Source: Sulfurimonas sp.
GTDB taxonomy: Bacteria; Campylobacterota; Campylobacteria; Campylobacterales; Sulfurimonadaceae
Reading direction: 5' to 3'
Length of the DNA: 64,000 nt
Assembly: GCA_028687935.1 (NCBI GenBank)
Contig: JAQTZE010000011.1
Coordinates: 1-64,000, forward strand
Positions 48,155 to 64,000 of this stretch are shown here, in pieces (position 1 is the stretch's first letter; each line of letters starts with the position of its first letter). The notes beneath the pieces were generated by a model. The model searched no databases. It saw only the letters and a list, made by a program, of their open reading frames with translations, and was not told where the DNA came from. The position numbers were made by a program, and so were the translations under genes.

Positions 48155-48706
48155 TTAATGTGTCGCTATTTTACCCTGTACATTTTCATCTGCCATATCA
48201 CTTTTCGGTTTATCTTTTTTAGGTTCTAGCGATGGTTGATGTATATTTTGATTTGGAAAGCTCTCTTCTTTTAGATTCTTAATATCAACTATAATCCATG
48301 TACCATTATGCTTTTCAAGTGTGTAGTGCATTTGATAAAATATATTCATCGGTTCTAATGCATAGTTTCTTTTCACTAAATCTGCATATCCAAATGTCCA
48401 GTTTTCCATAGTTCTAATTGTCGCATTGTCTTCATTATAAGCTATAGGAGAAAACCGCAAGTCATTGATCTGCGCAACCATGGCAAGATTACTAAACTTC
48501 CAAGAATCTGCCCAAACCATGAGCTTAAAAAATACATCTTCTGAAAGCATATCTCTTAGCAGCTGCGTATCACCGCTTTTTGTCATCTTAATGATGCCGT
48601 AGTTGTATTTAAGTAAAGTGTCTTTTATGCGTTTATCGTCATCGATATTTGAGTTCGCTATGCTTAATGTTGCAAAAAACAGTAGTATAAATAAAATTTT
48701 ATTCAT
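48155..48706 (-). CDS. Periplasmic NTF2-like protein
   Basis: A 183-residue protein with a signal peptide (about 1-17) and a fold pattern like NTF2/SnoaL domains: two N-terminal helices with LLRDMLSEDVFFKLMVW, then beta strands including WTFGYADLV, IFYQMHYTLEK and GTWIIVDIKN. The last ~35 residues are a Pro/Lys-rich polar tail. It follows the 693-residue cytochrome by 8 bases. A second, unrelated-looking NTF2-like domain is encoded at 53660-54409, so this fold recurs in the locus. Its role is unknown; binding or scaffolding is possible. Confidence 0.6.
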   Translation of the reverse strand: MNKILFILLFFATLSIANSNIDDDKRIKDTLLKYNYGIIKMTKSGDTQLLRDMLSEDVFFKLMVWADSWKFSNLAMVAQINDLRFSPIAYNEDNATIRTMENWTFGYADLVKRNYALEPMNIFYQMHYTLEKHNGTWIIVDIKNLKEESFPNQNIHQPSLEPKKDKPKSDMADENVQGKIATH

Positions 48707-48714
48707 ATCTCATC

Positions 48715-50796
48715 CTATGGCATCAAGTTGGCATCATAGCCACCATTATTTGAATTATGACACATACCACCGCCACCACAAGCTGGTGAATATGCATTGC
48801 CTGCAGTACCAACATCATTAGGATTATAAGGTCCTTTTTTCCAGCCTGTCATCTTCAGTGAATTTCCGCCATAGTTATATGGCGCCGGGAATGTTGAATA
48901 TCCTATTAGCCTTGATGTCGGCGAACCGTGGGGAATCACTAAATGGCACGTAACACAACTAAAACCTTTATTGGCCATTTGATTTCTCCACTTATCATGG
49001 GGATGCCTTATATCATGGCAATTTTTACACATGTTACCAGTATCTGTACCATTTTGAATATCATCCAATGTATATAGAGTAACACCGTCTGGCTTTTTCG
49101 GCCAATATTGATTCGCCCCTTTGAGAATATACTTCAAGTTTGAGCCATGTGGTCCTTTAGGATCTCCTCCAAGTTCATTATCCGCTCCATGACAATCAGA
49201 ACAGTACATGGTATTGAGTCCTGGGTTCTCTTTCCATGGTGTCAACAACTGAACCGCATTTAGTTCTCTTGGAGCATATGAACCTGTACGAGCTGACTGA
49301 TTGATTACTACAGGATGTCCGGATTTATTGTTAATATTCATCTCCCATGCTACATCGGTTAAGGGTGTAGTAAGATCACTATCTGAGACATGTCCTCCCG
49401 TATTGACACCCTTTACCGCATTCCCCATTCCCCAGTAAGAGTGGCATTTCAAACAAATCTGATACTCTTTTGTTGAAGATTCCAAAGTCTGAAAAGTTTT
49501 AGGCTGCGTCCATGCAGTAGGCCAAGACGGCTCTACTCCAGGGACACCCAGAAGCACATTTGATACTAAGTTTGTAGATGCTCCAGGAGCACCATACCAA
49601 GATCCATCGACAATATGTGTTCCTGCTTTGGCCTTATGTGGATTATGACAATCCATACACACCGCATGTTTATTTGTATCCCATTGCATACCTAAACCAC
49701 CATTTGGATCAGTTCTATCTCCACCAAAAAGTGCATCAAGGTTTGTATGTGCAGGAACTCCTCCACCCGGATTTACAGCTTCTGAAACTGGGTGCGTATA
49801 GAGTCTGCTTAACACAGACTGTATATCTTTAGCACCGCCTACACCGTGACATGCGGCATTGGCAATATCTGATGAGGCACCCTGAAAACAAGTTTGAGCC
49901 ATAATTTTTCTATTAAGATACGGTACTCCTTCTGCATTATGAGGTGTATGACAATTCACACAACCCAAATCAGACATCTTATCCGTTCCATATATCCCTG
50001 CAACACCGGATCCACTTTTATATACAGTAGCAGCAGGTGGTGAGTGATGAATACTCCCAACCCAATTAAGTTTATCATGACATGCCGTACATGTATTTAC
50101 AACATTTTGTGCGTGGTTTGCTCCAGTATCTACACGCAAAAACTTCTTGTTATCTTTGTGTGGATCATGACAGGATGAACATTCAACATACTGTTTTCCT
50201 CCGTATGTAAAAAGTTTTACCTGCGCATCTGCAGCCAATGTATTTTTAAGCTCAATTGTTCTACTGCCTAGATCAAAATTTTTGGTAACACCTGCTTTAT
50301 ACTCAATACCGACAGGATGATGCATTCTCAAATCAGTACCCAAAAATCCTACTGCCGTTGTCGGCATGGTGCCATCAGCTGCAACACCATTCATGGTAAT
50401 TAATGATGCACCGATAACCCCGTGAAGTACACTTACTGCTCCGATTGCTATCGTGCCATCATGACAACTCATACATTGACGAGACAAGGCACCAGGGGTA
50501 TCATTCGCTACTCCAAGATCTGATGCAACAGCTGGATAGCCCATTCTTTTCATATAATCACTATCATACATGGTATAGTTTGATGTAGGCATACTTCTAT
50601 TCCAGAGCGGTTTACCCGTTGTTTGAGACTGATGCGGTATGTGGCAAAAAACGCATACTTCTGTTTCTGTTTGCGCTTTTATGGGTCCCGATGTATTGCT
50701 TACGGAGAGGTTATGTTTTGTATTGACGATAGTAGCCGTAACAGGAACGCCACTGAATAAAAACAAGCTCAAAAGAGCCGTGATTATATACTTCAT
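48715..50796 (-). CDS. Large multiheme cytochrome c (10 canonical plus 2 atypical heme sites)
   Basis: A 693-residue exported cytochrome (signal peptide about 1-21). Ten CXXCH motifs are present, the first at C48-H52. Two further candidates are CX12CH (CFQGASSDIANAACH) and, near the C-terminus, CX5CH (CGGGGMCH). Residues about 23-245 are paralogous to the 242-residue tetraheme protein: KHNLS, CVFCHIPH, CMSCHDG, HHPVGIEYKAGV, YVECSSCHDPH, FLRV, then CTACHD. The rest is Gly/Pro-rich with widely spaced hemes, as in outer-surface cytochromes. It overlaps the NHL gene by 4 bases. It may be the terminal extracellular reductase or a filament cap; this is inference. Confidence 0.88.
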   Translation of the reverse strand: MKYIITALLSLFLFSGVPVTATIVNTKHNLSVSNTSGPIKAQTETEVCVFCHIPHQSQTTGKPLWNRSMPTSNYTMYDSDYMKRMGYPAVASDLGVANDTPGALSRQCMSCHDGTIAIGAVSVLHGVIGASLITMNGVAADGTMPTTAVGFLGTDLRMHHPVGIEYKAGVTKNFDLGSRTIELKNTLAADAQVKLFTYGGKQYVECSSCHDPHKDNKKFLRVDTGANHAQNVVNTCTACHDKLNWVGSIHHSPPAATVYKSGSGVAGIYGTDKMSDLGCVNCHTPHNAEGVPYLNRKIMAQTCFQGASSDIANAACHGVGGAKDIQSVLSRLYTHPVSEAVNPGGGVPAHTNLDALFGGDRTDPNGGLGMQWDTNKHAVCMDCHNPHKAKAGTHIVDGSWYGAPGASTNLVSNVLLGVPGVEPSWPTAWTQPKTFQTLESSTKEYQICLKCHSYWGMGNAVKGVNTGGHVSDSDLTTPLTDVAWEMNINNKSGHPVVINQSARTGSYAPRELNAVQLLTPWKENPGLNTMYCSDCHGADNELGGDPKGPHGSNLKYILKGANQYWPKKPDGVTLYTLDDIQNGTDTGNMCKNCHDIRHPHDKWRNQMANKGFSCVTCHLVIPHGSPTSRLIGYSTFPAPYNYGGNSLKMTGWKKGPYNPNDVGTAGNAYSPACGGGGMCHNSNNGGYDANLMP

Positions 50797-51815
50797 TTTG
50801 AACCCCTTTTTTTATCAGCGTCAAGCAGCTGAAAAACTTGCAATCGTTGGTTGTTTGTATCTGAAATATAAATAGTATCATCTTTGCTTATAGATATATC
50901 TTCTGGAAGTGCGAACTCACCATAGCCTACTCCATAATTGCCAAGTACCATCAGCAGCTCTCCGTTTTTATTAAAAATTTGTATATTATTAAACATTGCA
51001 TCACTTACATATATATTATTTTGACTATCAAGAGCTATTCCCCGTGGGCTTCCAAAATTTCCAATATTTTGACCTAGTTCACCAAACTTAAATAGAAAAT
51101 TTCCATCCTTATCAAGAATTTGAACGCGATGATTCATAGAATCTGAAATATATATTTTTCCATCATTCCCTATGTCAATAAAAGTAGGTCTGTTGAACGC
51201 TCCGTCTTGTGAACCATTTTGACCGATAGATTTAACAAATTCTCCCTTTAAAGTCGTAACATGTATCTGGCTTGCCAGGGCATCTACAATATAAAGATAT
51301 TTATCATCAGGACTCAATGCAATTCCAACCGGTCTCTGCATTACAGGCAGTGATATTGTATAGCTGTAATCTCCATCTTTCTCAAATACATATATTTTAG
51401 CCCGAACTGAATCTGAAACAAAAATATTTCCCTTAGCATCTGCAAGAACATCAATAGGATAAAGAAAAGTTTCCTTATCTGTCCCTCTAATGACAATATG
51501 CTCGTTATCTTTTTTATCAAAAATATGTAAAGCTTTGGAACTAGTATCTGTTACATAAACCCTTTCTTCATCAGTATGTATTCCAAAAGGTGAACTTATG
51601 ACAGGTTCTTCATCACCGATTACAAAATCATATACTTTGGAGAAAAAGCTCTTTTGCATCCCTAAATCTTTAAAATTATGAGCAGATGTAACATACTCTA
51701 TTCTAGGTTCATCCGGAGGGCAAGGCCAGACCAATTTTTGCATATCTTGCGCATAGAGACAATTGATACTGAGTAAAAATACACTTACTAAAACCAATCT
51801 ATTCATTTTTAACAT
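50793..51815 (-). CDS. NHL-repeat beta-propeller protein, periplasmic or secreted
   Basis: A 340-residue protein with signal peptide (about 1-22) and six NHL blades with motifs such as PFGIHTDEERVYVTDTSS, PIDVLADAKGNIFVSDS and PRGIALDSQNNIYVSDAMFN. Before the propeller comes WPCPPDEPRIEYV, a PPxxPxI element also present in the second NHL protein of this locus. NHL propellers are frequent companions of multiheme cytochrome clusters, possibly as assembly or docking factors. It starts 3 bases after the barrel gene and overlaps the 693-residue cytochrome gene by 4. Confidence 0.85.
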   Translation of the reverse strand: MLKMNRLVLVSVFLLSINCLYAQDMQKLVWPCPPDEPRIEYVTSAHNFKDLGMQKSFFSKVYDFVIGDEEPVISSPFGIHTDEERVYVTDTSSKALHIFDKKDNEHIVIRGTDKETFLYPIDVLADAKGNIFVSDSVRAKIYVFEKDGDYSYTISLPVMQRPVGIALSPDDKYLYIVDALASQIHVTTLKGEFVKSIGQNGSQDGAFNRPTFIDIGNDGKIYISDSMNHRVQILDKDGNFLFKFGELGQNIGNFGSPRGIALDSQNNIYVSDAMFNNIQIFNKNGELLMVLGNYGVGYGEFALPEDISISKDDTIYISDTNNQRLQVFQLLDADKKRGSK

Positions 51816-51818
51816 CCT

Positions 51819-53561
51819 TTAAAATTTACGCTCAAATCTTGCTTGTAAGGCATAACTGTTTCTACTTATGAGCGCACTATCCTCACCTGCAATTACTTTA
51901 CTATAAATATATCCAAGTGATATTTTTGTTTTTTGAGTACTATACGCTAAGTTATTATTTGCTCTATAGGTCATAATGTCATAAATCAAATCTGAATCAA
52001 CATTCATATCGCTTGTAAAAATTACTTTTGATCCAAATCTATATTTAAAACTCAAATCACCTTTTGGATTAAGGCGCTCTAATTTTGTCATACCATTCTC
52101 AACAGATGAATAACTAGCCCCAACTTTTGTTGTTAGCGTACCATTGATACCTATTTGTGAACTATTGCTAAGATAATCTTCAATAAGTATTGTATTGATA
52201 CTTCTATTCATAAAAACATCAAGATACCTAAGTTTAGATTCCTCTTTATAGTATGAGGTATTAAAATGATTTCTAACCAAAGAGTAGAGCATTGTCGTAA
52301 AAGTGAAGTCCGCATTATATCTTGCATCCTCTTCATCTAAAGTACTACTTGATTCGTTATATCCTACATTTATATTTGCTTGAGAATTGAGCGAGCTAAG
52401 GTCATGCGATAAACCAGCTCTTGCATAATATGTATATCTATTACTATTTGCAGAAACATTATTATCGCTCTTAAAAGTTCTCACATTGGCAGACAATGAT
52501 GAATTAATCCTTGTCTCTTTACTTATACTTTCTGAATAGTTAATGGCAGAACCTACACTCGAACTTTGAGTGGAAAGTATATCACTCGTTACAATACTAT
52601 GGTCTGCCTGTTGAGAAAGAGTTAAATTTTTTGTTATTTTATAAGCATACGCTTCTCTTAGAGTCATGCTTTCTGTAGTATTAAAACTATCTTCAATGTT
52701 AAAGCCATCTAAGCTTACTGACGCACTATGCTTAGTCTTTGGATCCCATCTTAAGTTAGCGTTTGCATATGTTGTTGATGAAGAGTAAGCCTCACTACCT
52801 CCAAATTCCTTCTCTCTATGGTAAGAGTATGTATCAAACGCAAATTCATCATTTATTTTCCATCTATACATAAGATTTATATTATCTTCTGTACTGTTTA
52901 TAGTCGTTTGAGTGGAATTTGTATAATTTCTTTGAACAATATCCTCAATATTGCTATAGTCTAGTTGAAAATTATAATTTTCTTCTTGTTTTCTAATAGA
53001 ATTACTATATGTTTTTGTATTTCTGTCTTCAAAATTTAAGAAACTTTCATATTGGGTACTCATATCTGTTGCGCTATAGGTGTAATCAAAAAAATTAAAA
53101 TCGATCGATCCGGAGATACCTTTTGACTCAGAACTATTTAAAGATCTAATAAGGCCAGCTTCATATACAACAGAAGTTGGTCTGTCACTTTTTTCTGCAT
53201 ATATTCTAAATGGCATGCTACTATCTCTTAAAAAATTGAAATCCACCTTATAGTCTTGACTTTCAACTTTTATTTTTGATGCTTCATCATTAAACTTTGT
53301 ATCTACATCTTCGTATCGTAAAATACCCATGAGTGAGTAATCCAATAGTTTTGGATTATATATATTTCCTCTATATCCAAGTCCATACTCTTGCACAAAC
53401 TTATTCTCTGAGCTCTTTGACTCATCACTCTCATATCCATTTGATAAATAACTTAGTCCTAATCTCCCCTCAAACCCTCTATCCTTATATACAGATGAAG
53501 ATGCAAATAATCCGGGTGCTTCGGGAATTCTTGCATATGAATCTTGTGATTTTTTTAACAC
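51819..53561 (-). CDS. Large outer-membrane beta-barrel, conduit candidate (5' end frameshifted)
   Basis: From the GTG at 53561 this is 580 residues of repeated amphipathic strands ending in a C-terminal phenylalanine (ALQARFERKF), a classical barrel signal. It has no signal peptide. Its frame stays open upstream through a Ser/Glu/Lys-rich linker to the A10 tract at 53701-53710, where a one-base change joins it to the exported protein of 53660-54409. The natural product is therefore probably one protein of about 880 residues: signal peptide, NTF2-like domain, linker, barrel. Between NHL and cytochrome genes it is the best candidate for the porin of a porin-cytochrome conduit. Confidence 0.75.
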   Translation of the reverse strand: MLKKSQDSYARIPEAPGLFASSSVYKDRGFEGRLGLSYLSNGYESDESKSSENKFVQEYGLGYRGNIYNPKLLDYSLMGILRYEDVDTKFNDEASKIKVESQDYKVDFNFLRDSSMPFRIYAEKSDRPTSVVYEAGLIRSLNSSESKGISGSIDFNFFDYTYSATDMSTQYESFLNFEDRNTKTYSNSIRKQEENYNFQLDYSNIEDIVQRNYTNSTQTTINSTEDNINLMYRWKINDEFAFDTYSYHREKEFGGSEAYSSSTTYANANLRWDPKTKHSASVSLDGFNIEDSFNTTESMTLREAYAYKITKNLTLSQQADHSIVTSDILSTQSSSVGSAINYSESISKETRINSSLSANVRTFKSDNNVSANSNRYTYYARAGLSHDLSSLNSQANINVGYNESSSTLDEEDARYNADFTFTTMLYSLVRNHFNTSYYKEESKLRYLDVFMNRSINTILIEDYLSNSSQIGINGTLTTKVGASYSSVENGMTKLERLNPKGDLSFKYRFGSKVIFTSDMNVDSDLIYDIMTYRANNNLAYSTQKTKISLGYIYSKVIAGEDSALISRNSYALQARFERKF

Positions 53562-53659
53562 AACTGTGGCTTTAGAAGAGGTATCAATTTGTTCAGAGCT
53601 TTCTTTTTTACTCTCAGAAGTTTCTTGTTTGCTTTGAGAACTCTTATCAAGTTCATCAG

Positions 53660-54409
53660 TTAAGAGAGTATCATTATGCTCTGGAGGTTGGGGTGCAAGC
53701 TTTTTTTTTTACTACTATCTAATACTAAAGAGTCTGTTTTTAGAAATTCAAGCTCTTTTAGACTTTTATCAATATATGGCATAAGAAGTAAAGACTTTTT
53801 ATAAGCGCCCTCTTCCCAGGCTTCTTGTGTTATTTTACACTCTGTTTTTGCTTTATCACAGCTGACATGTAAAGTTTTATATCCCTTATCACATCTTGTG
53901 CCTGTAGTATATTCCTGATAAAATTTGATAATATAATTATTCTCATCTATTTTTTTAGAAACCGGATCTGTAATAATAGTTGAAATAGAATCGGTGTTAC
54001 TAAATATTTTCTGTTTTCTATCTGGCCACAAACTATTATTGATAAAAGAGTTATCATAATGCGAGGCGTATGTTTCAAATTCTCGAGACTCCCAGCTCTT
54101 TTTCCAAGAGTCTAAAAAATCGTTTAACTTTACATCTATTGTATCAAATACGCTGCTCTTCAACTCTAAGAGCAGCTCTCTCGCCTCTTTTTGTTTATTA
54201 TTTTTAATCATCTCACATGCATTATAGTAACTCTCAAGTATTTCTTGCAAGTCTTGCGTTTTTATAGGTTTTTTTAAACCAGAGTTTTTAAATAAACTCT
54301 CATTGCACTCTTCTTTTTCTATTGTCGACGCTACTGTTTTATGCTCATTCTCCATGGCTGAGAGAGTTAAGAGTGTAAATAATAGAATAAGAAAAAGCCT
54401 AAGCATCAC
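53660..54409 (-). CDS. Exported NTF2-like domain protein, probable N-terminal part of the barrel protein
   Basis: A 249-residue frame with signal peptide (about 1-18), a helical segment (about 45-85, with NKQKEAREL) and an NTF2-like domain (about 95-200: FLDSWKKSWESREFETYASHY, then IKFYQEYTTG and CKITQEAWE). After DSSKKK it runs through the A10 tract into 16 residues that look out of frame (SLHPNLQSIM). With one more A the frame continues as KLAPQPPEHN into the barrel. It is therefore likely not an independent gene. It lies 90 bases after the peptidyl-prolyl isomerase. Confidence 0.7.
   Translation of the reverse strand: MMLRLFLILLFTLLTLSAMENEHKTVASTIEKEECNESLFKNSGLKKPIKTQDLQEILESYYNACEMIKNNKQKEARELLLELKSSVFDTIDVKLNDFLDSWKKSWESREFETYASHYDNSFINNSLWPDRKQKIFSNTDSISTIITDPVSKKIDENNYIIKFYQEYTTGTRCDKGYKTLHVSCDKAKTECKITQEAWEEGAYKKSLLLMPYIDKSLKELEFLKTDSLVLDSSKKKSLHPNLQSIMILS
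53701..53710. repeat. A10 homopolymer at the joint of two gene halves
   Basis: Ten T on the plus strand (A on the coding strand). Ten A end the upstream frame early; eleven or eight A would fuse it to the outer-membrane barrel. Tracts of this length are prone to slippage in replication and transcription, and also to sequencing error. Confidence 0.8.
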
Positions 54410-54499
54410 ATATTTACCTTATTATTCTAAGAGAACAGTTATTGCGCAAATAAGCCAAACGCGATATACAAGCAACATGAAATACAACATAATTAAAAC

Positions 54500-55435
54500 T
54501 CATGATACAAATACTGCCTTTGATTTCAAGTTCTCAAGTAACTTTGATTTTTTATCTTCTTCCATGCTTTTTTTGAGGTCTACAGCTAATTTCTTTTTCA
54601 CAGCATCAAATGAAAGCTGATTTTCTGCTGTTTTATCTTCAACTCTTACGATAAAAAAACCTATATCTTCCTCGATAATTTCACTCGTTGTATTGACATC
54701 CATGGAAAAGGCTTTTTCTTCAACTGAAGGCTCAAGCATACCTTTATGAGTATAGCCCAAGTCACCGCCTTTTATACGACTCATTGCTGTAGAGTATTTC
54801 GCTGCTACATCTGCAAAATTTTCACCGGACTTTAGTTTTTCATAGGCCTCTTCAATTCTATTTTTAGCCTTGCTTTTCCCCTGCGGGTCAGTAGGATCAT
54901 TTCGTACATAGATAATCTTTGCTACAATCTTTTGCGGCTCTTTAAACTTATGTTTATTTTTATCATAATACGCTTTAAGGTCCTTCTCTGAGAGAGTTGT
55001 TTCAATCTTTTCTTTATGAAGTTGTTTTAACATCTCTTCTTTATAAATAACTTCTTTTAAACTCTTGAGTGTAAGTCCAGATTTACTGAGAGACTCATTG
55101 AGTTTTTCCGGAGTTTCAAGTAGTTTTTTTAATTTATCGATACTTGCATCGATATCACTGTTTGAAACTTTAATTCCAATCGATTTGGCATATTGAAAAA
55201 GTAATTCATTCTCTACCAATTCTGCGAGAACTTTATCTTCAAACACTTTCATCTGCTCATTTGAGAGAGTTCCATGATAGTATCGCGTCGGAAACAACGC
55301 TCTTACCCCACGGTCGAGTTCACTTTTTGTGATTTTTGTGCCATTAACAGTTGTAAGTACATCTGTAGCAGCCAAATCCGCAGGCTTTGCATATAAACAA
55401 CTTAAGCATATTAAAATCGATACTATACCTTTCAA
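54500..55435 (-). CDS. SurA/PpiC-type periplasmic peptidyl-prolyl isomerase
   Basis: A 311-residue exported chaperone: signal peptide (about 1-16), a SurA-like N-terminal helical part (TKSELDRGVRALFPTRYYHG..., about 35-125) and a parvulin domain (about 130-240) with YEKLKSGENFADVAAKYS, GGDLGYTHKGML and FSMDVNTTSEII. It would assist folding of the barrel or the many proline-rich cytochromes. Such isomerases recur in multiheme cytochrome loci. It starts 19 bases after the NHL lipoprotein gene. Confidence 0.9.
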   Translation of the reverse strand: MKGIVSILICLSCLYAKPADLAATDVLTTVNGTKITKSELDRGVRALFPTRYYHGTLSNEQMKVFEDKVLAELVENELLFQYAKSIGIKVSNSDIDASIDKLKKLLETPEKLNESLSKSGLTLKSLKEVIYKEEMLKQLHKEKIETTLSEKDLKAYYDKNKHKFKEPQKIVAKIIYVRNDPTDPQGKSKAKNRIEEAYEKLKSGENFADVAAKYSTAMSRIKGGDLGYTHKGMLEPSVEEKAFSMDVNTTSEIIEEDIGFFIVRVEDKTAENQLSFDAVKKKLAVDLKKSMEEDKKSKLLENLKSKAVFVS

Positions 55436-55454
55436 TAATCACTCCATTTCTATC

Positions 55455-56522
55455 TTATATTTTTTTCAGTTCCAGATACTTTTCTGGATTGTTTTTTTTC
55501 CATCTCTCACTTACATATTGATAAATTTGCACTCTTGCATTAAATCCATCTACGATGTATATCCTATCATTTCCATCAATATACATACCTGTTATAAGTG
55601 AAAAATTACCTATACTTCTGCCCGTCCCTCCAAAATAGATGAGAAGCTCTCCACTCTCATTGAAAACTTGTATATTGTTAAACGCAGAATCCGTTACATA
55701 TATGTTTCCATCACTATCAATTCCAACACCTTTAGGTCTTGCAAACATTCCGGGTCTGTCACCGATTTTTCCAAACTTTTTGATAAATTTTCCATCTTTA
55801 TCAAAAATCTGCACACGAAAGTTCTGAGTATCAACTACTACAATATTTTCATTTCTCTTATCAATGGCAATATTTGTCGGAAAGTTAAATTCCCCATCTT
55901 CTTTGCCTCTCTTTCCAAACGAAAAAAGCTCTTCACCCTCCAGCGAATAAACTTTAATATTATGATCTTTTGTATCCACTACATAAAGTCTCTTTTGTTT
56001 ATCACTGATGGCGATGTCTGCTGGTCTGTTAAACTCTTTCTCTTTGCCAATGGCTAAAACAAGATGACCATCTGATCTATCGTAGGCCAATACTTTAGCT
56101 GCCTTTGCATCTGCCACATATATTTTGCCATCATCACTCAGTGCTATTCCAACAGGAAGAGAGAGTTTACCGGGGGAACTGGCTCCAATATAAGAAACTT
56201 TTCCTTGAACTTCATCTATCACAAAAACAGCGCCGATAGCCGTATCTGATACATACACTACATTTTTGCTAGCAGCAACTCCATAAGGCTTTGCAAGGTT
56301 CTTATTTTCCGATGAAGCTACTTCTCCAATAAAATTATCTAAAGTATTCTGTTTGACAAAACTGATATCGCCGCGATAGGCTGTATCAAAAAAGATTTTT
56401 GGCTCCTCTGGTGGGCCGGGTATCACAATTTTTATAGCTTCTTGTTTTTGACTACAAGCAGTGAACAAGACAAGAGTGAAAATATACATATATACTTTTA
56501 AAAAACTTTTAAACACAAACAA
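55455..56522 (-). CDS. NHL-repeat beta-propeller lipoprotein
   Basis: A 355-residue lipoprotein (lipobox LFTAC, Cys23; an alternative start is Met12). The mature part begins with the PGPPEEPKIFF element shared with the NHL protein at 50793, followed by six blades such as PYGVAASKNVVYVSDTA, PADIAISDKQKRLYVVDTKD and PKGVGIDSDGNIYVTDSAFN. Anchored to the outer membrane, it could hold or guide cytochromes. It follows the tetraheme gene after a strong hairpin. Confidence 0.87.
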   Translation of the reverse strand: MFVFKSFLKVYMYIFTLVLFTACSQKQEAIKIVIPGPPEEPKIFFDTAYRGDISFVKQNTLDNFIGEVASSENKNLAKPYGVAASKNVVYVSDTAIGAVFVIDEVQGKVSYIGASSPGKLSLPVGIALSDDGKIYVADAKAAKVLAYDRSDGHLVLAIGKEKEFNRPADIAISDKQKRLYVVDTKDHNIKVYSLEGEELFSFGKRGKEDGEFNFPTNIAIDKRNENIVVVDTQNFRVQIFDKDGKFIKKFGKIGDRPGMFARPKGVGIDSDGNIYVTDSAFNNIQVFNESGELLIYFGGTGRSIGNFSLITGMYIDGNDRIYIVDGFNARVQIYQYVSERWKKNNPEKYLELKKI

Positions 56523-56595
56523 ACCTTTTTGAAAATTTAAAGTACATTACAGAACCATGATTATCGTCATGCAAGAGATTAGTTAAAGAAGACAC

Positions 56596-56629
56596 TATAA
56601 GAGGGGGAGTCTTCTCCATCCCTCTTATA
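56596..56629. terminator. Strong hairpin 3' of the tetraheme gene
   Basis: A 10-bp perfect stem (TATAAGAGGG/CCCTCTTATA) extended inward by GGAG/CTCC with a two-base bulge and a TCTT loop. It begins 10 bases after the tetraheme stop codon. The minus-strand transcript has no clear U-run, so it may reduce read-through and protect the 3' end. Confidence 0.65.
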
Positions 56630-56638
56630 AATGTAAGA

Positions 56639-57367
56639 CTATTTTGCGTGACATCCTAAACAAAGAGCGCTGCCAGCATTTTGAACTCTTAAGAATGCAA
56701 CCGAACTTGCATTCTTACTATCCGCACCATTATGTGGATCATGGCAAGAGCCACACTCAACATAATCAAGACCACCAGTTGTTCTTAGAAGACCTTGAAT
56801 AGTTGTAGCTCCGGTCCATCCAGTTATAGCTGTAGCTTTAGCTTTTAATCCTGCTACACCTGGCTTATACTCAATTGAAACTGGATGGTCATTGCTTAAA
56901 TCAGTTCCTATATTTGAAGCATTGCCAGTTAACCCGAGAGTCGCAAAGCTTTGTGCATTTGTACCAATAAATGCATCACCATCAGCAGTTGCAAGGCCAC
57001 TACCCGGAGCGTTTACTACAGAGTTGACCGCACTTACACCATCGTGACAACTTAAACATGCCATAGAAGAAGCATTAACAGTCGCGTTATCACCTGCATG
57101 ACCGGCTGTCGTTCCTCCAACAGTAGTGCCATACAGTGTAAATGGACCTGCGGGTGTTCCTTTATTCCAAATTGGTGCACCAGTGAAAGACGTATTCGCG
57201 GCGTGCGGCGTGTGACAATAGACACAAAGCTCACCGTTATCCTCAGTTCCACCACCCGTCCATGCAGTGTTACTTAAATCATGCGCCGTACCAGTAATAC
57301 CCGCCGCACCCCACAATGAAACAAACCCCGTTAACAAAATCCCCATGACTATTTTTACATTAATCAA
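56639..57367 (-). CDS. Exported tetraheme cytochrome c, OmcE-like filament subunit candidate
   Basis: A 242-residue protein with signal peptide (about 1-21). Four CXXCH sites (C48-H52, C104-H108, C205-H209, C236-H240) come with extra histidines suited to bis-His ligation: H29 in AHDLS, H55 in CHTPH, H161 in DHPVSIEY and H212 in CHDPH, plus H90. Size, four hemes and low-complexity Gly/Ala/Thr loops recall the tetraheme extracellular filament cytochrome OmcE of Geobacter. The start is TTG with GGAG 7 bases upstream. It has its own promoter and is flanked by hairpins, as for an abundant single-gene product. Filament formation is inferred, not shown. Confidence 0.85.
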   Translation of the reverse strand: MINVKIVMGILLTGFVSLWGAAGITGTAHDLSNTAWTGGGTEDNGELCVYCHTPHAANTSFTGAPIWNKGTPAGPFTLYGTTVGGTTAGHAGDNATVNASSMACLSCHDGVSAVNSVVNAPGSGLATADGDAFIGTNAQSFATLGLTGNASNIGTDLSNDHPVSIEYKPGVAGLKAKATAITGWTGATTIQGLLRTTGGLDYVECGSCHDPHNGADSKNASSVAFLRVQNAGSALCLGCHAK

Positions 57368-57430
57368 GTTTAAACTCCTTTTTTGTGTTGAAGTATGTTA
57401 TAAGTAATAACTATACTTTCTACTGCTAGT

Positions 57431-57459
57431 ATTATAACTATTTTCTTAATTGATTTCAA
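57431..57459 (-). promoter_or_regulatory. Consensus sigma70 promoter of the tetraheme gene
   Basis: On the minus strand TTGAAA (57459-57454) is followed after exactly 17 bases by TATAAT (57436-57431). The transcript would start about 55 bases before the TTG start codon. Confidence 0.75.
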
Positions 57460-57491
57460 GTAAAACAGTGATGACTTTAATTTCAATGTGT

Positions 57492-57528
57492 ACAAAAGTA
57501 ACACTTTGTAACAAAGTGTTACTTTTGT
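57492..57528. terminator. Perfect 17-bp hairpin after the octaheme gene
   Basis: ACAAAAGTAACACTTTG pairs without mismatch with its complement around a TAA loop. It begins 7 bases after the stop of the gene at 57535 and lies before the tetraheme promoter, separating the two transcripts. Confidence 0.8.
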
Positions 57529-57534
57529 GATATT

Positions 57535-58563
57535 CTATTTTTTATGACATCTACTACATACACTAAAAGGCAGTGAGCCCTTCATTCTAAGCAACATAGT
57601 TCCCCTTGAACCATGAGGGTTATGACAACTAGTGCAAGTCAAGTCTCTACCTGGTCTTGCTGGGTCTTTTCTATTTTTAGTTGGATGTCCACCTGTAGTT
57701 GTTTGTCCAAAGCCGATAGAAGATATCACATGTTTACCATCAGCTTTTTCAGCGTGGCATGTAACACAAAGTTCCCAAATAGGCTTACGAAGAAAAAATT
57801 CATTATCAGATCCATGAGGATTGTGGCAGCGTTCACATCTTCCATCATTTACTGCTCCATGACCGTACTTGCTTGCCTGCCAAGTATCTACATCATCATG
57901 ACAATTTCCACAAGTTTCTGCTATGGGATCTGGTGCAAGATATTTTGATGCACCCCCATCGTCCATATTATACTCTCCAGGCTTGCCGTTATGACACTCT
58001 GTGCATAGCCAGTTACTAACGGGTGCATGCGTATTTTTGGTCTTAAGCATGCCTTGATGACATGAATAGCATGTTGTTTCAGTTACATCTTCAAACGGCT
58101 TATTGTTTTTTGGAATATTTGATGTCATATCGTGGCAAGACTTACATTTGTCCTCATTTTCTTTTGTATGAAAATACTCAGACTTATATTCTTCAACACT
58201 ATCTTCATCGATCCCCTCAAAAAGCTCAGATAAAAAATAAAAGTCCTTTTTAGTGGTCTCAATTAACTTAGAATCTTTATAACAAGTGATACTCACTTTA
58301 TCTTGAGCAGTATGAAGTTTTATAGTCTTACAATACGTTTTCTTATTTGACATTACCTCTACCGCATAAGTGTCATTATTATCTAGAGTAATTACTATTT
58401 TATCCACGCGTTTAGGATCTGTTTCTATAACCAAAGTACAGTTTTCACCGGAAAATCGTACTTTATCAAGCGGATGTAAAACTTTAATAGATGAAGTGGC
58501 GGGCTCTTTTGCATTGCCGTTTAAAACGACAAAAAGCAAAAGAAATATTTTTATAAATTTCAA
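57535..58563 (-). CDS. Octaheme cytochrome c with N-terminal beta domain
   Basis: A 342-residue exported protein (signal about 1-18). Residues about 25-110 form a beta-rich Ig-like segment (VIETDPKRVDKIVITLDNNDTY). Eight CXXCH sites follow: CKSCH, CYSCH, CTECH, CGNCH, CERCH, CVTCH, CTSCH, CSRCH. It includes the doubled-CXXCH style elements CHNPHGS and LCVTCHAEK. It is paralogous to the genes at 60332 and 61339, sharing the APVSNWLC and GRCERCHNPH landmarks. It starts 7 bases after the 12-heme gene. Likely periplasmic or outer-surface electron carrier. Confidence 0.9.
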   Translation of the reverse strand: MKFIKIFLLLFVVLNGNAKEPATSSIKVLHPLDKVRFSGENCTLVIETDPKRVDKIVITLDNNDTYAVEVMSNKKTYCKTIKLHTAQDKVSITCYKDSKLIETTKKDFYFLSELFEGIDEDSVEEYKSEYFHTKENEDKCKSCHDMTSNIPKNNKPFEDVTETTCYSCHQGMLKTKNTHAPVSNWLCTECHNGKPGEYNMDDGGASKYLAPDPIAETCGNCHDDVDTWQASKYGHGAVNDGRCERCHNPHGSDNEFFLRKPIWELCVTCHAEKADGKHVISSIGFGQTTTGGHPTKNRKDPARPGRDLTCTSCHNPHGSRGTMLLRMKGSLPFSVCSRCHKK

Positions 58564-58570
58564 AGTAAAT

Positions 58571-59794
58571 CTACTTTAAATTTACTATTGGTTTTTCTTT
58601 ATCATAGTGACGACGAGCATGACACGCTGGTGCACATGATCCACCATTATCAGTTTCAATAAAACGAATCGGAAAGTCAATCTTACCAAACGCAGTTTTC
58701 TTTCTCAAGTGATGTGGGTACTCTTTAGTACCATGAAAATCATGACATGCTCTACAAGAACGCCCTTTTTCTTTATTTACATGTACAAAGTGCATATTTT
58801 TGTCACCATTTCTAAAGTTTGTCGCTGTTGTAGTAAATTCATCTTGAATTTTTTCTTTTTCATGACATTCGAAACAGATATAGTTATGTTCATCAAACTT
58901 CTCATAAAAATCTCTAGGAAATGGTTTTTTCAACATTCTTAAATTGTTAGAACCATGAGGATTGTGACATGATGCACAATCACCCCAAAGAATTGGACCA
59001 TGCCAATCCGGGTTTTCATCAAGATGTTTTCCCATATTTGATAACTTCTCACCTGTTTCATCTGTTACCAATGTTTCACTATGGCATGTTAAACAAAGCT
59101 CTTTAGAAGTATCCTTAACTAGAAATTTTGGATGCTCTGAACCGTGTGGGTCATGACACTCAAGACATTTTCTCGGTCTATCTAACGCACCATGCTTATC
59201 TGTTACTGTTTTGGTCCAAACATCTTTATCCACATGACACATAACGCATAAATCTTTTTTACCATCGGCTTTTAGCTGGTAAAGATGATCTTCCGTATGT
59301 GGATCATGACAATTTGTACACTGATCTTTTACCGGCGGGTGAATATTGGTTGTTTTGCGCAAAAAGTCATCTTTTGCTTGATGACATGACACACAAAGTT
59401 CATTTATACTAGATGCAACTAATAATTTTGCATTATCAGATTCATGAGGATTATGACACGCAGTACAAGCACCTGCAGCAACCGGACCATGAATAAATTT
59501 TTTAGTATCTTTTGCTTCATGACACATTGCACATAACTCTGGAGGGTCCATAATCAGACCTTGCTCACCTTTTCCATCTTTATGACAAACCGTACAATCA
59601 CCCCATTCATAAGGAGGATGAACAACTTTTTTAGATGATTTTAATTCTGTTCCATAAAACTTTTCACTCTCTGTTAAAACTGTATCTTTAGTTTTACTTG
59701 CATCTGTAGCACTCGCTGGTGCTGCAGAAAGATTAGAGTAAACAAGTAGCATTGCAAGTATAACTTTTGCAATGTGAAGACTTTTAATTTTCAT
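58571..59794 (-). CDS. Dodecaheme-type doubled-CXXCH cytochrome (11 CXXCH plus one CX3CH)
   Basis: A 407-residue exported cytochrome (signal about 1-24). Eleven CXXCH sites alternate in the doubled pattern (ELCxxCH then CxxCHxPHxS..LL), and the C-terminus has GGSCAPACH, a CX3CH site. The paralogue at 62268 has the same GGSCAPACH near its end plus the shared GRSCRACHD. Doubled-CXXCH proteins are typical of DmsE/MtrA-like or OmcB-like conduits that wire the outer membrane. It follows the monoheme gene by 28 bases and precedes the octaheme by 7. Confidence 0.9.
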   Translation of the reverse strand: MKIKSLHIAKVILAMLLVYSNLSAAPASATDASKTKDTVLTESEKFYGTELKSSKKVVHPPYEWGDCTVCHKDGKGEQGLIMDPPELCAMCHEAKDTKKFIHGPVAAGACTACHNPHESDNAKLLVASSINELCVSCHQAKDDFLRKTTNIHPPVKDQCTNCHDPHTEDHLYQLKADGKKDLCVMCHVDKDVWTKTVTDKHGALDRPRKCLECHDPHGSEHPKFLVKDTSKELCLTCHSETLVTDETGEKLSNMGKHLDENPDWHGPILWGDCASCHNPHGSNNLRMLKKPFPRDFYEKFDEHNYICFECHEKEKIQDEFTTTATNFRNGDKNMHFVHVNKEKGRSCRACHDFHGTKEYPHHLRKKTAFGKIDFPIRFIETDNGGSCAPACHARRHYDKEKPIVNLK

Positions 59795-59822
59795 TTTTTA
59801 CCTTTATTGAGAATAACTTTAA

Positions 59823-60152
59823 TTAACGATTAGAATGAATTATATATTTAGAAATTGCATGCAGATCTTCTTCAAAAAGCATCCTAATTTTTACTAACTG
59901 TGGTTCCATAACAGACGCACGTGCAGGATCTACTATAGGAGTACCCTGACCCTTAAGATATGTTAACAATGCCATTTCTTTGCCTGCATATACATTCGCT
60001 ATATTTCTAAGTGAAGGTCCGATAGCTTCCTCATCTTTTTTGTGACATAAAACACAACCTTTTGATTCGAAAAGAACCTCACCCGTCTCTTGGGCAGGTA
60101 CATCTGTCAACAGCAACATAGTAACAGACAATCCCAGTACAATTTTTTTCAT
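59823..60152 (-). CDS. Small monoheme class I cytochrome c
   Basis: A 109-residue periplasmic cytochrome with signal peptide (about 1-20), heme site C33-H37 (CVLCHKK) and a likely distal Met82 in SVMEPQ. Class I folds with His/Met ligation have a high potential and act as soluble shuttles. It begins the second cytochrome sub-operon, 28 bases before the 12-heme gene, and could deliver electrons between inner membrane enzymes and the multiheme proteins. Confidence 0.9.
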   Translation of the reverse strand: MKKIVLGLSVTMLLLTDVPAQETGEVLFESKGCVLCHKKDEEAIGPSLRNIANVYAGKEMALLTYLKGQGTPIVDPARASVMEPQLVKIRMLFEEDLHAISKYIIHSNR

Positions 60153-60257
60153 ATAAAAATCCTCTCGTGATATAATAATTTGTAACTATTGTAGCATAAG
60201 TTTTCATAATACAATGACACTACTTTATCTTTGATTACTTAATCATGCGAAAAAGCG

Positions 60258-60302
60258 TCAATCGGTAACTAAACTACTTATTAATGGCATTTTTGGAAAC
60301 AA
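60258..60302 (-). CDS. Possible 14-residue leader peptide
   Basis: A near-perfect ribosome site AGGAGGAG lies 6 bases before a TTG that opens a 14-codon ORF (MFPKMPLISSLVTD) in the 179-base gap after the octaheme gene at 60332. It could be a leader or the leftover start of a lost gene. Low certainty. Confidence 0.25.
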   Translation of the reverse strand: MFPKMPLISSLVTD

Positions 60303-60331
60303 TATTTACTCCTCCTAGTAATAAAATTTAT

Positions 60332-61342
60332 CTATTTCTCATGACAACGTGTACATAGTCCATGAACAGTATCATCCACTAAAAGTGAAGAAGCATTTGA
60401 AGCGTGCGGATTATGACAACTGATGCAACTCAGATCTTTTCCGGGTCTTGATGGATCTTTTTTGTTATGAGTTGGATGCCTGATACTTGTAAATGTTCTT
60501 ACTATATGCACACCTTCAATTTTATCTTTATGACAGCCTGTGCAGAGTTCCCATGCTGGCGTTCTTAAATAAAACTCACTTTGTTCCGAATGTGAGTTGT
60601 GACATTTATTACATCGTCCGGACTCTGCAGGTTCGTGATTAAAACGCTTTTTACTCCATTTATTTTTGTTTTTTTCATGACAAGAGAAACAAACGTCTCT
60701 TATTGGATCCGGATAAGTATATTTTGATTTGTTTTTATCGGCTTGGTTATATATACCGACTTTACCGTTATGGCAAGAAGTGCAGAGCCAATTAACTGCC
60801 GGAGCATGTGCATGTTTTTTACTTGCAAGAGTACTATGGCATTTATAACAGTTTGATTTTGAAATATCTTCAAAGGCTACGCCGGGAACTTCATTCACGC
60901 TCATATCATGACATTTGGAACAAACTTTTTCATTAGTATTATTATGAAAAAAGTTTGTACTGTACTTATTTGGCGGATATCTATACTCTTTGTGCACCTT
61001 TGATGTAAGAAAAACCGTCTGTTTTTCCTGCTTTACAAGAGTAGCCCCCTTGTAAGCATTTACGCTTATGTTGTTTTCGCCTAAATGTAAATTTATTTTT
61101 TTGCAATAGTGCGTACGCGAGGAATTGACACTTAGATGGAAAGTTTCATTCATGTCATTGCTGATTACTATAGAATCAATAGCAGCACTCTGTACTTCAA
61201 CTACAACGGAAATGACATTTTCTTCACTTATGCGTGCTACTGGTGGATTTACTATTTTTAATATCTCTATAGGCTCCGCAAAAAGTGGGAGTGAAAACAG
61301 TAGTGTAAAAATTATATATTTTATATATGTACAATTTTTCAC
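60332..61342 (-). CDS. Octaheme cytochrome c, paralogue of 57535
   Basis: A 336-residue exported protein (signal about 1-22) with a beta-rich N-terminal domain (about 30-110) and eight CXXCH sites: CSKCH, CYKCH, CTSCH, CFSCH, CNKCH, CTGCH, CISCH, CTRCH. Landmarks APAVNWLCTSCHNGK, SGRCNKCHNSH and PSRPGKDLSCISCHNPH match the paralogue at 57535. It overlaps the 7-heme gene by 4 bases, so the two are translated together. Confidence 0.9.
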   Translation of the reverse strand: MKNCTYIKYIIFTLLFSLPLFAEPIEILKIVNPPVARISEENVISVVVEVQSAAIDSIVISNDMNETFHLSVNSSRTHYCKKINLHLGENNISVNAYKGATLVKQEKQTVFLTSKVHKEYRYPPNKYSTNFFHNNTNEKVCSKCHDMSVNEVPGVAFEDISKSNCYKCHSTLASKKHAHAPAVNWLCTSCHNGKVGIYNQADKNKSKYTYPDPIRDVCFSCHEKNKNKWSKKRFNHEPAESGRCNKCHNSHSEQSEFYLRTPAWELCTGCHKDKIEGVHIVRTFTSIRHPTHNKKDPSRPGKDLSCISCHNPHASNASSLLVDDTVHGLCTRCHEK

Positions 61343-62271
61343 TTTATTGCCTTATTTGGTGTCTTTTTTAAAAAAAATGGCTGGTTTGAAGCATGAGGAG
61401 TATGACAATCGATACATAATCTTCCATAACTGGCACCGCATGCACTGATTTTGCTTTGCATTGCACGAGTATTTTGACCTTTATGGCATCCAAGACAAAT
61501 CTCGTTAACCGGTTTTCGCACAAACATTGAGTAAGGACTCGAATGTGGATTGTGACACTTATTACAGCGTCCGGAGTCAAGAGGTTCATGATGGTATTTT
61601 GAACTGTTCCATAGCTCCTGATTTTCTTCATGACACTTAAAGCATGTCTGATTTACAGGACTTAGAGTGCCGTATTTAGATTCTTTTACACTCTTTAAAT
61701 CATGGCAGCTTATACATAACCAGTTAGCTGCCGGAGCGTGAGCATATTTCTCTTTGACAATATTTTTATGACATAAGTAGCAATTTGATTTTTTCACATC
61801 CATAAAGGCTACACCTTTTGTTTCATTTGCCTTCATATTATGACATTTGACACATTTAGCTTCATTGGAGTCGTTATGAAAAAAATTTTGTTTATATATC
61901 TCAGGCGGAAATTTATACTCATGATAGAGTTGTGATGAGACATATATATGCCTAGTATTTTCATTAAGCATCACTTGATTTTTGTAAGCGCGTATACTGA
62001 TTGTATTTTCTCCGAGTCTGAGTAAAATATTTTGGCACTTCATTGTTTCAGAGCTATTTAAATCTAAAGTAATCTGTTCAAGTGGTGTATCTATTGTCAT
62101 AGTATCAATACCATTCTCTTTTATCTTCACAACAACATTCATACTCAATTCGGTTTGTAAGCTATTATCTAGCGGAGAGAGAACTGTCATCACGGTATCA
62201 GCTTGAAGCATATGGAAACTGCCGCCCCATAAAAATATGACAACAGTTAAAAAAAAGTGAGTCGGCTTCAT
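61339..62271 (-). CDS. Heptaheme cytochrome c, paralogue of the octahemes
   Basis: A 310-residue exported protein (signal about 1-24) with the same beta-rich N-terminus and seven CXXCH sites: CVKCH, CYLCH, CISCH, CFKCH, CNKCH, CLGCH, CIDCH. It ends soon after CHTPHASN and lacks the last heme found in the paralogues at 57535 and 60332. It overlaps both neighbours by 4 bases. It appears to come from tandem duplication with loss of the C-terminal heme. Confidence 0.9.
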   Translation of the reverse strand: MKPTHFFLTVVIFLWGGSFHMLQADTVMTVLSPLDNSLQTELSMNVVVKIKENGIDTMTIDTPLEQITLDLNSSETMKCQNILLRLGENTISIRAYKNQVMLNENTRHIYVSSQLYHEYKFPPEIYKQNFFHNDSNEAKCVKCHNMKANETKGVAFMDVKKSNCYLCHKNIVKEKYAHAPAANWLCISCHDLKSVKESKYGTLSPVNQTCFKCHEENQELWNSSKYHHEPLDSGRCNKCHNPHSSPYSMFVRKPVNEICLGCHKGQNTRAMQSKISACGASYGRLCIDCHTPHASNQPFFLKKTPNKAIK

Positions 62272-63788
62272 TTACCGATTCCTTTTGGATTGACACGGTC
62301 GTACTCAAATTTTTTATGACATGCCGGAGCACATGAGCCGCCATCAGCAGTTTCTATGTATCGAAGTGGAAATTTTATACCGTTAAAATCTGTATAATCA
62401 CGGATTAAATGCGTATATTTAGAAGCATGTTCGTCATGGCATGCCCTACAAGACCTTCCTTTTCTGTCATTGACATGCAAATAATGCAGATTAACTTCCC
62501 CGTCTCTAAACGCGGTAATATTGTGCTCTTTTGAAGTCGTTATGAACTGTGTTGTAATTTTTTTCTCTGTATGACATTTAAAACAGAAAAAGTCTTTATT
62601 TTCTAAATCAGCATAAAAGTTTTTAGTGAATGATTTTCTCAAAATACTAAAGTTATCTGAACCGTGTGGATCATGACACGCTGAGCAGCCTCCCTCTTTT
62701 TTGGCATCTTTAATCGGTTTATGCCAGTTTGGATTTTCTTCTAAATGTTTTTTCATATTTATTAGCATTCCGCCGTCCTCGTCAGACTTGATTTCCTTGT
62801 CATGACAACTAAGGCATGTAGCTACTATATCTTTTTTAAGTAAGTTCTTATGTTTTGTCGCATGCGGGTCATGACACTCCAGACATCGTTTTTCACTTGT
62901 ATTTACCCCACCATGTTTAAACTTCGAATGTGTTGTTTTTTCTTTTACTTCATCGTGGCAATCTAAACATAAATCCATCTTTGCATCAAGAGAAAGAAGT
63001 GATTTATACTCTGCTGTATGTGCATCGTGACATTCTAAACAACTTTTTTCTACAATAGGTTTATGTTTAACTTCTAGATTCATATCGACAAACTGTTTTT
63101 TTGCTTTGCCGCTAAATGTACTTTTACGATCATGACACTTCATGCATAAAGCATTTATAGAATTCTCTTTGAGCAGGCCCTTGGTATTTGACTGATGTGG
63201 ATCATGGCAATCCATACATTTTCCATCTTTCGCAGGAGTATGGTCAAACTTTTTCGTATATCGAGTTTTGTGGCACTCATAGCATATATCTGCAATGTTT
63301 TTTTTGATAAGTTCTCCGGGATTGTTATTTTTTGATGTATGGCATATCTGACATGCCCCCATTTTAAATGGCTCATGAAGATACTGTTTGAGTGGTTTAA
63401 ATTTGGCAGGTAAATCTTCAAGCTTTACAATTTTTGCTTTTACTGCCTGCGTTTTCATATGTGTAGGAGTTTCTTCTTCTCTGATCTCATCAATGCGAAT
63501 CTCTGGTGGTGCTACCGCTGCAAGAACCAGCGCTTCTTTTTTCCTATCAATAGAAGTTTTAAATTCTTGAGCAAGTTTAGTGATATTGATATCGTTTAAT
63601 TCATCCTCCGTTATTGAAAAATTCTCTTCTTCATACGCATGTTTAGCGTTTTGAAGATTATAGGTAATATTGCCCATAATCGCCACAAAACGACCAAATT
63701 TTTCTGAAACACCATATACTTGAAATAATAATGTACCAATTAATAGCAACAACACCATTGCTACTATTTTCTTTATATGCTGTTTCAT
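62268..63788 (-). CDS. Dodecaheme-type cytochrome, paralogue of 58571 (11 CXXCH plus one CX3CH)
   Basis: A 506-residue protein with an N-terminal hydrophobic segment (about 8-27) that may act as an uncleaved anchor, a polar linker (about 40-130) and eleven CXXCH sites, from CQICH to CRACH, then GGSCAPACHKK (CX3CH). About 100 residues longer than its paralogue, mostly in the N-terminal linker. A membrane anchor would place it as the inner-membrane or periplasm-spanning part of the relay. It overlaps the 7-heme gene by 4 bases and starts 20 bases after another cytochrome gene. Confidence 0.9.
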   Translation of the reverse strand: MKQHIKKIVAMVLLLLIGTLLFQVYGVSEKFGRFVAIMGNITYNLQNAKHAYEEENFSITEDELNDINITKLAQEFKTSIDRKKEALVLAAVAPPEIRIDEIREEETPTHMKTQAVKAKIVKLEDLPAKFKPLKQYLHEPFKMGACQICHTSKNNNPGELIKKNIADICYECHKTRYTKKFDHTPAKDGKCMDCHDPHQSNTKGLLKENSINALCMKCHDRKSTFSGKAKKQFVDMNLEVKHKPIVEKSCLECHDAHTAEYKSLLSLDAKMDLCLDCHDEVKEKTTHSKFKHGGVNTSEKRCLECHDPHATKHKNLLKKDIVATCLSCHDKEIKSDEDGGMLINMKKHLEENPNWHKPIKDAKKEGGCSACHDPHGSDNFSILRKSFTKNFYADLENKDFFCFKCHTEKKITTQFITTSKEHNITAFRDGEVNLHYLHVNDRKGRSCRACHDEHASKYTHLIRDYTDFNGIKFPLRYIETADGGSCAPACHKKFEYDRVNPKGIGK

Positions 63789-63808
63789 TTTCTACCTTTA
63801 TCTCATAA

Positions 63809-64000
63809 TTAATTTGATTGAAATTTACCAACAGGACAATCTGTTTCAACAACTGTATCTCGCAAAAGTTTTTCTCTGTCTGCATGATGGGGATTGTGGC
63901 ACTTATTGCAATCCAAATCAGCAATGCGATTATCAATCTCATTTTTTGGAATATGACATATATAACAAAGCTGTCCTACAGTACGGGTGACGATTGCGGC
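63809..64000 (-). CDS. Multiheme cytochrome c, C-terminal part (cut by window edge)
   Basis: The last 63 residues of a protein whose start lies beyond the window. It contains CYICH and, 21 residues later, CNKCHNPHHAD, in the doubled-CXXCH style of the neighbours, and ends with VGKFQSN. At least two hemes; the full number cannot be seen. It is the upstream member of the same operon. Confidence 0.8.
   Translation of the reverse strand, partial: AAIVTRTVGQLCYICHIPKNEIDNRIADLDCNKCHNPHHADREKLLRDTVVETDCPVGKFQSN

Follow-up and report, generated by a model that had tools for sequence, protein, structure and literature searches.

A cluster of multihaem cytochromes in Sulfurimonas probably encodes a Uet-related extracellular electron transfer machine

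What might a bacterium achieve with nine cytochromes, two NHL propellers, a peptidyl-prolyl isomerase (PPIase) and a β-barrel encoded side by side? The question is raised by the 64,000-nucleotide window analysed here (positions 1 to 64,000 of contig JAQTZE010000011.1, assembly GCA_028687935.1, Sulfurimonas sp.), whose minus strand carries 62 canonical CXXCH haem sites between positions 48715 and 64000, 60 in eight complete cytochromes and 2 in a ninth (63809-64342) that is cut by the window end. The first-pass annotation had counted exactly these 62 sites, and the nine cytochromes, two NHL propellers, SurA/PpiC-type isomerase and barrel-like open reading frame (ORF) that it listed were all recovered. 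Its co-orientation of the genes was equally borne out, as the entire locus lies on one strand with intergenic gaps of -4 to 179 bases. A dedicated CcsBA haem lyase had also been described; the copy is indeed specific to the locus, being a second one that is 43% identical to the CcsBA on another contig, but it sits just beyond the interval 48715-64000 rather than inside it (Table 1). The clustering of haem motifs is real and far beyond chance level, since a six-frame count returned 65 CXXCH in this interval versus 2 in the remaining 48.7 kb and a mean of 0.7 in shuffled sequence. Similarly, all 27 doubled-CXXCH matches of the entire 2.58-Mb genome fall inside the locus. At least four more, non-canonical haem sites are likely, comprising a CX3CH in both 12-haem proteins together with a CX12CH and a CX5CH in the large cytochrome. 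The cluster begins upstream of the window, with a NapC-type tetrahaem.

The locus probably encodes an extracellular electron transfer machine of Sulfurimonas, related to the undecaheme electron transfer (Uet) pathway, that would export electrons via the barrel and an OmcE-type filament. This reading is based on homologies, on the conservation of haem sites and ligands, on the predicted barrel fold and on conserved gene order; from these we infer the localisation of the proteins, the formation of a filament and its joint with the undecahaem cytochrome, as well as the direction and the sink of the electrons. The NapC-type tetrahaem would oxidise the quinol pool, and c5h, c12b, the Ig7/Ig8 cytochromes, c1 and c12a would carry them across the periplasm. 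The outer membrane would be passed inside the predicted 28-strand barrel, probably on c12a and/or on the C-terminal module of the undecahaem cytochrome. Electrons would then exit along the OmcE-type tetrahaem filament, with the N-terminal OmcE domain of the undecahaem protein acting as the joint that docks the filament on the conduit. The PPIase and the NHL propellers may help assembly or secretion and CcsBA would attach the haems, while the electrons would probably end up on an electrode, on a solid oxide or in a partner cell.

The Uet pathway has been described in Ca. Tenderia electrophaga/Tenderiales and in some Gallionella, and comprises the tetrahaem UetA, the PPIase UetB, the porin UetC, the trihaems UetDEG, the NHL proteins UetHI and the undecahaem UetJ (PMC10734462). 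A gammaproteobacterial locus, here termed L095 (G and L numbers are our labels for genomes and loci), displays the full uetA-J order, and the one trihaem examined there belongs to the c7 family. The link to Uet is established through the fit of L095 to the published gene list (PMC10734462) and not through Tenderia proteins. The tetrahaem of the window is 34% identical to the UetA-like tetrahaem of L095 (E 2e-34), and the undecahaem protein is 29% identical to its UetJ-like counterpart over residues 4-624 (E 7e-64). Two UetHI-like NHL-repeat proteins are also present in the window locus. Its predicted barrel stands next to the PPIase, in the position of UetC, but the sequence profiles of this barrel and the L095 barrel match weakly (hhalign probability 17). 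The locus core, composed of the tetrahaem, the PPIase, the barrel, the two NHL proteins and the undecahaem, is related to the Uet pathway. The first-pass annotation could name no system that matched the gene set and order, a verdict that does not stand in view of this published relative.

An outward direction of electron flow is probable because a NapC-type quinol dehydrogenase heads the cluster, and the finding that a Sulfurimonas oxidises sulfide with MnO2 (PMC9122950) is counted in favour of export. The main rival is inward operation, in which filament and conduit would draw electrons from cathodes, partner cells or Fe(II) minerals and pass them to the periplasm, for use by the nitrate reductase Nap and a cbb3 oxidase. 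It is favoured by the organisms in which Uet was described, which oxidise cathodes and iron (PMC10734462; PMC13386937), and inward flow was proposed for the cathode-oxidising Tenderiales; the host genome (2.58 Mb; Sulfurimonas, Campylobacterota) encodes NapA and CcoN as terminal acceptor enzymes, as well as a NiFe hydrogenase. The NapC-family quinol dehydrogenase nevertheless fits quinol oxidation, although this argument is weak because such chains can be reversible. Uptake of electrons is regarded as unlikely and export as the preferred direction. A Sox-linked reading was dropped, as SoxB was not found in the host genome.

Nearly the full length of the tetrahaem aligns with two solved proteins, namely 7tfs_A, the OmcE nanowire subunit of Geobacter sulfurreducens, and 9yuq_N (E 3e-25), from an entry that contains 16 identical chains. 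The four CXXCH motifs are invariant in an alignment of 66 homologues, and H29, H55, H161 and H212 are kept in 91-100% of them. These four distal residues together with the four CXXCH histidines provide the eight axial ligands required by four bis-His haems. One haem of OmcE wires is ligated in part by the adjacent subunit (PMC12954529), and the position of the N-terminal H29 suggests that it would act as this intersubunit ligand. The tetrahaem may form extracellular filaments, as its homologies suggest. Export across the outer membrane could also proceed with an OmcE homologue that does not polymerise, serving as a monomeric surface terminal reductase or as a shuttle; homology and ligand conservation are no proof of polymerisation, and what OmcE filaments do physiologically is under dispute (PMC11077965). 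This option is judged improbable, however, because the distal histidines are so widely retained, wires needing a ligand from the neighbouring subunit, and because the 16-chain entry aligns nearly full length. An OmcS type was rejected for both the tetrahaem and the undecahaem, which find no OmcS match in the PDB and both match OmcE.

The undecahaem protein of the window displays 10 CXXCH motifs, but 11 invariant haem sites emerge when 48 relatives drawn from many phyla are aligned. The eleventh is a CX12CH (C303-H317) that is invariant in all 48 and invisible to a count restricted to CXXCH, and a twelfth candidate is near-invariant at C679-H680. These sites agree with the 11-12 haems given for UetJ (PMC10734462). 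A sequence match to OmcE covers residues 6-225 (E 4e-24), and in the structure model (predicted local distance difference test, pLDDT, 79.6; predicted template modelling score, pTM, 0.84) residues 27-241 superpose on 7TFS with Z 10.9 and a root-mean-square deviation of 3.0 over 180 residues (Foldseek E 3e-8). The C-terminal part resembles 6r2q_A, the MtrA of the Mtr complex, weakly and below the trusted level (Z 5.9). The N-terminal histidine of the OmcE domain is invariant in the 48 sequences. A tree built from 114 sequences sets the OmcE domains of undecahaem proteins apart from the free tetrahaems, with a single sequence misplaced (support 0.85); the fusion is therefore old. Of the undecahaem loci, 49 extend at least 6 kb upstream; a free OmcE-like gene occurs in 38 of them and every one has an NHL gene, and in 55 of 76 loci the NHL gene stands immediately upstream of the undecahaem gene. 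We tentatively suggest that the UetJ family could be a dedicated nanowire-to-conduit adaptor, a possibility that falls short of our favoured claims, in which the OmcE domain would cap or seed the filament through a shared-ligand joint like that between filament subunits while the C-terminal haem module would contact the barrel. If true, OmcE/Uet-type wires would gain a known base, and the adaptor would account for a cassette that travels through many phyla as one unit. Two Sulfurimonas genomes carry a second undecahaem gene near the first (L146 in G446; L147 in G437). In G358, which holds the full cassette, a second copy lies on another contig (L051:8594-10657), with genes for a divergent PPIase and an 8-haem protein nearby.

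The barrel ORF is predicted to form a large outer-membrane barrel, plausibly wide enough to accommodate a cytochrome, and is not claimed here as an MtrB orthologue. The top match of the model in a Foldseek search of the PDB is 6r2q_B (E 2e-11), the barrel MtrB of the Mtr complex. The likeliest plug for the barrel would be c12a, whose PDB search returned a single, partial match, to 6r2q_A (E 8e-16). It is the best-conserved cytochrome of the locus, with 66-84% identity to the window protein across the phylum, in contrast with just 22-33% for the barrel of the relatives. That the cluster is instead a purely periplasmic reductase system for a soluble acceptor, with the barrel as substrate porin, is very improbable: NapC-type donors often supply periplasmic reductases, and neither PPIases nor NHL proteins are peculiar to electron export, but no catalytic reductase was recognised within the cluster, the homology is of Uet type with an OmcE domain in two proteins, and 28 predicted strands exceed those of solute porins.

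The barrel ORF starts within a linker and has no signal peptide, and the preceding ORF displays a signal peptide and a Cds6_C domain; the two join in sense if the frame shifts at a run of ten A residues. Both are thus probably parts of one fused gene that contains a sequencing error, a (transcriptional) slippage site or a recent break. Relatives possess a single intact barrel gene with either a plain signal peptide or a long N-terminal extension, which is an acidic linker in L057, L063, G441 and G472; a search of these relatives' barrel genes for a Cds6_C domain gave none. The Persephonella barrel (L061:6650-8980) carries an N-terminal SPOR domain, a domain that usually binds peptidoglycan. 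These extensions, the SPOR domain as well as the long linkers in Sulfurimonas, look like tethers to peptidoglycan or to the inner membrane.

Several observations weigh against assigning the locus to Uet-type, filament-based export. Firm sequence homology between the barrels of the window and L095 was not found, as the hhalign probability given above indicates, and no UetDEG trihaems lie between the barrel and NHL1 in the window locus. The trihaem c5h, located elsewhere in the cluster, matches an L095 trihaem unconvincingly (E 0.011). With no alignment between the barrels and no UetDEG counterparts, the locus is considered a Uet-related variant and not a member of Uet. When the barrel was compared by VIA-align, siderophore receptors reached Z values of up to 19.3 and 6r2q_B 15.0; as the receptors outrank it, the resemblance to MtrB amounts at most to a common fold. 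Finally, deletion of omcE in Geobacter leaves Fe(III) oxide reduction unimpaired (PMC11077965). OmcE homology is therefore no proof of an essential wire, and the wire of Geobacter may be one of several outlets.

The tetrahaem occurs in 12 of 397 genomes of the phylum and in 6 of 68 genera. The order c1, c12a, Ig8a, tetrahaem, NHL2, PPIase, barrel, NHL1, undecahaem, NTF2s, CcsBA is conserved in G311, G145, G057, G053, G379, G358, L055, G441 and G436, with one to three tetrahaem copies per cassette, one of them sometimes after NHL2. G404 and G399 also keep it, but there the CcsBA matches are two separate weaker ORFs; the remaining loci are permuted (G249) or interrupted by contig ends. The order recurs in several genera of Campylobacterota, and a rearranged form exists in Aquificota and Nitrospirota. 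The first-pass annotation had named a lack of joint conservation in related genomes as grounds for refutation, and the reading came through this check unrefuted. In the undecahaem tree the Campylobacterota, the Aquificota and two Nitrospirota sequences form one clade (100/100), in which the Aquificota are nested within the Campylobacterota with weak support (87/80). Transfer between these lineages is likely on this evidence. The undecahaem gene was found in 15 of 135 Sulfurimonas species, and the cassette is thus patchy within the genus. In G145, G057 and G053 haem-free genes are inserted between Ig8a and the tetrahaem. The insert is a recurring three-gene set of about 372-396, 218 and 390-396 amino acids (L037-L042 in these three genomes; L047 in G249), found in non-Sulfurimonas genomes, and its sizes suggest a candidate ABC-type exporter.

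The genes for NapC, c5h, c12b and two Ig cytochromes form a unit separate from the main cassette. This module lies directly upstream in G000, and on the opposite strand nearby in G387, where it is complete, and in G057, where it is partial. The dodecahaem c12b is a paralogue of c12a, and a search of 10 other Campylobacterota genomes gave c12b orthologues of 55-78% identity in 7. The Ig-like domain of Ig7 has no Pfam match and its assignment is a reading of the sequence. An NTF2-like fold for the small secreted protein NTF2s is a guess. A fused MFS/spermidine-synthase protein is encoded at window positions 42518-44902, 8 bases after CcsBA, and several Sulfurimonas (L055, L057, G341, G446) retain it close to the cassette.

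Table 1 Features of the electron transfer locus, in window coordinates unless stated otherwise
Feature	Coordinates	Strand	Remarks
CcsBA haem lyase, locus-specific paralogue	44911..48057	-	position conserved among relatives
NTF2s, small secreted protein	48155..48706	-	adjoins undecahaem gene in Campylobacterota; no Pfam match
Undecahaem (UetJ-like), N-terminal OmcE domain and 7-8-haem C-terminal module, 693 amino acids	48715..50796	-	
NHL1, secreted NHL propeller (UetH/I-like)	50793..51815	-	PF01436 E 1e-29
Predicted 28-strand outer-membrane β-barrel, candidate conduit	51819..53561	-	AlphaFold2 pLDDT 90.4
Cds6_C (NTF2-like) periplasmic domain, probable 5' part of barrel gene	53660..54409	-	PF24125 E 1e-10
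A10 run, frame change between Cds6_C ORF and barrel ORF	53701..53710	-	
SurA/PpiC-type PPIase (UetB-like)	54500..55435	-	24% identity, E 2e-22 to L095 PPIase
NHL2, lipoprotein with NHL propeller (UetH/I-like)	55455..56522	-	PF01436 E 3e-30; lipobox LFTAC
OmcE/UetA-type tetrahaem, nanowire subunit homologue, 242 amino acids	56639..57367	-	PDB 7tfs_A E 1.3e-30
Ig8a, presumed Ig-like N-terminal domain and octahaem cytochrome	57535..58563	-	
c12a, secreted dodecahaem cytochrome	58571..59794	-	11 CXXCH + CX3CH; distantly MtrA/DmsE-like
c1, monohaem class I cytochrome c	59823..60152	-	PF00034; position conserved
Ig8b, presumed Ig-like N-terminal domain and octahaem cytochrome	60332..61342	-	
Ig7, presumed Ig-like N-terminal domain and 7-haem cytochrome	61339..62271	-	
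c12b, membrane-anchored dodecahaem cytochrome	62268..63788	-	11 CXXCH + CX3CH
c5h, membrane-anchored trihaem cytochrome, 177 amino acids	63809..64342 (window part to 64000)	-	
NapC/NrfH-type tetrahaem	contig 64349-64999		upstream of c5h; PF03264 E 1.4e-32

The connection of nanowires to the cell interior has been stated to be poorly understood (PMC10553843), and a Sulfurimonas genome was reported to hold incomplete known conduit sets only, an undetected porin being suspected (PMC11748539). The literature consulted gave no gene-level explanation of how Sulfurimonas, which is abundant in marine redoxclines, reduces solid MnO2. The present locus is a concrete candidate for both the wire-to-cell link and this MnO2 reduction. 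Its patchy distribution offers a direct genotype-phenotype test, and since the genome contains no other doubled-CXXCH locus a clean genetic test is possible. Uet and OmcE are already known; as far as the literature consulted shows, the novelty lies in the Campylobacterota/Aquificota form, which carries a periplasmic chain, and in interpreting the undecahaem as an OmcE-domain adaptor. Among papers on OmcE or undecaheme cytochromes together with Sulfurimonas, as represented by their titles and abstracts, none describes the locus, and an earlier mention in Baquero 2023 or Eddie 2022 is possible.

Among known systems, the Geoalkalibacter ferrihydriticus locus Ga0056053_02426-02431 likewise combines MtoA-like and quinol-linked cytochromes, an OmcE homologue and two NHL proteins, but by its annotation, on which the comparison was made, no undecahaem or PPIase is named (PMC12016550). 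The OetABI/OmcX/OmcS clusters of bacterial partners of ANME archaea share the association of a barrel conduit and filament cytochromes in one cluster; compared by description, they differ in that no NHL, PPIase or OmcE is named there, and a relationship to OetABI was rejected in favour of the better-fitting Uet description (PMC10553843). The OmcE nanowire of Geobacter sulfurreducens (7TFS) is similar to the Sulfurimonas tetrahaem in sequence, size, its four haems and all eight axial histidines, although the Geobacter protein is known as a filament and the Sulfurimonas homologue from its gene alone. MtrCAB (6R2Q) resembles the locus through its large barrel, the best Foldseek match, and through the distant likeness of c12a to 6r2q_A. 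In contrast, the Sulfurimonas barrel is predicted to have 28 strands, the MtrB barrel having 26, and the locus adds OmcE, NHL and PPIase genes. The NCBIfam OmcA/MtrC model for extracellular decahaems scored far under its cut-off in both proteins matched, and membership of MtrCAB was rejected because no MtrC-type cytochrome is present. The logic of a porin-cytochrome conduit combined with a filament, recognised in the first-pass annotation, persists through the OmcE homology, the large barrel with its top Foldseek match to MtrB and the synteny; what falls away is the namelessness of the gene set. The Uet pathway is alike in having the PPIase ahead of the barrel and an NHL gene directly ahead of the undecahaem gene, whereas in the Sulfurimonas locus an NHL gene separates the tetrahaem from the PPIase, and c1, two dodecahaems, Ig-octahaems, NTF2s, CcsBA and the NapC chain are additional.

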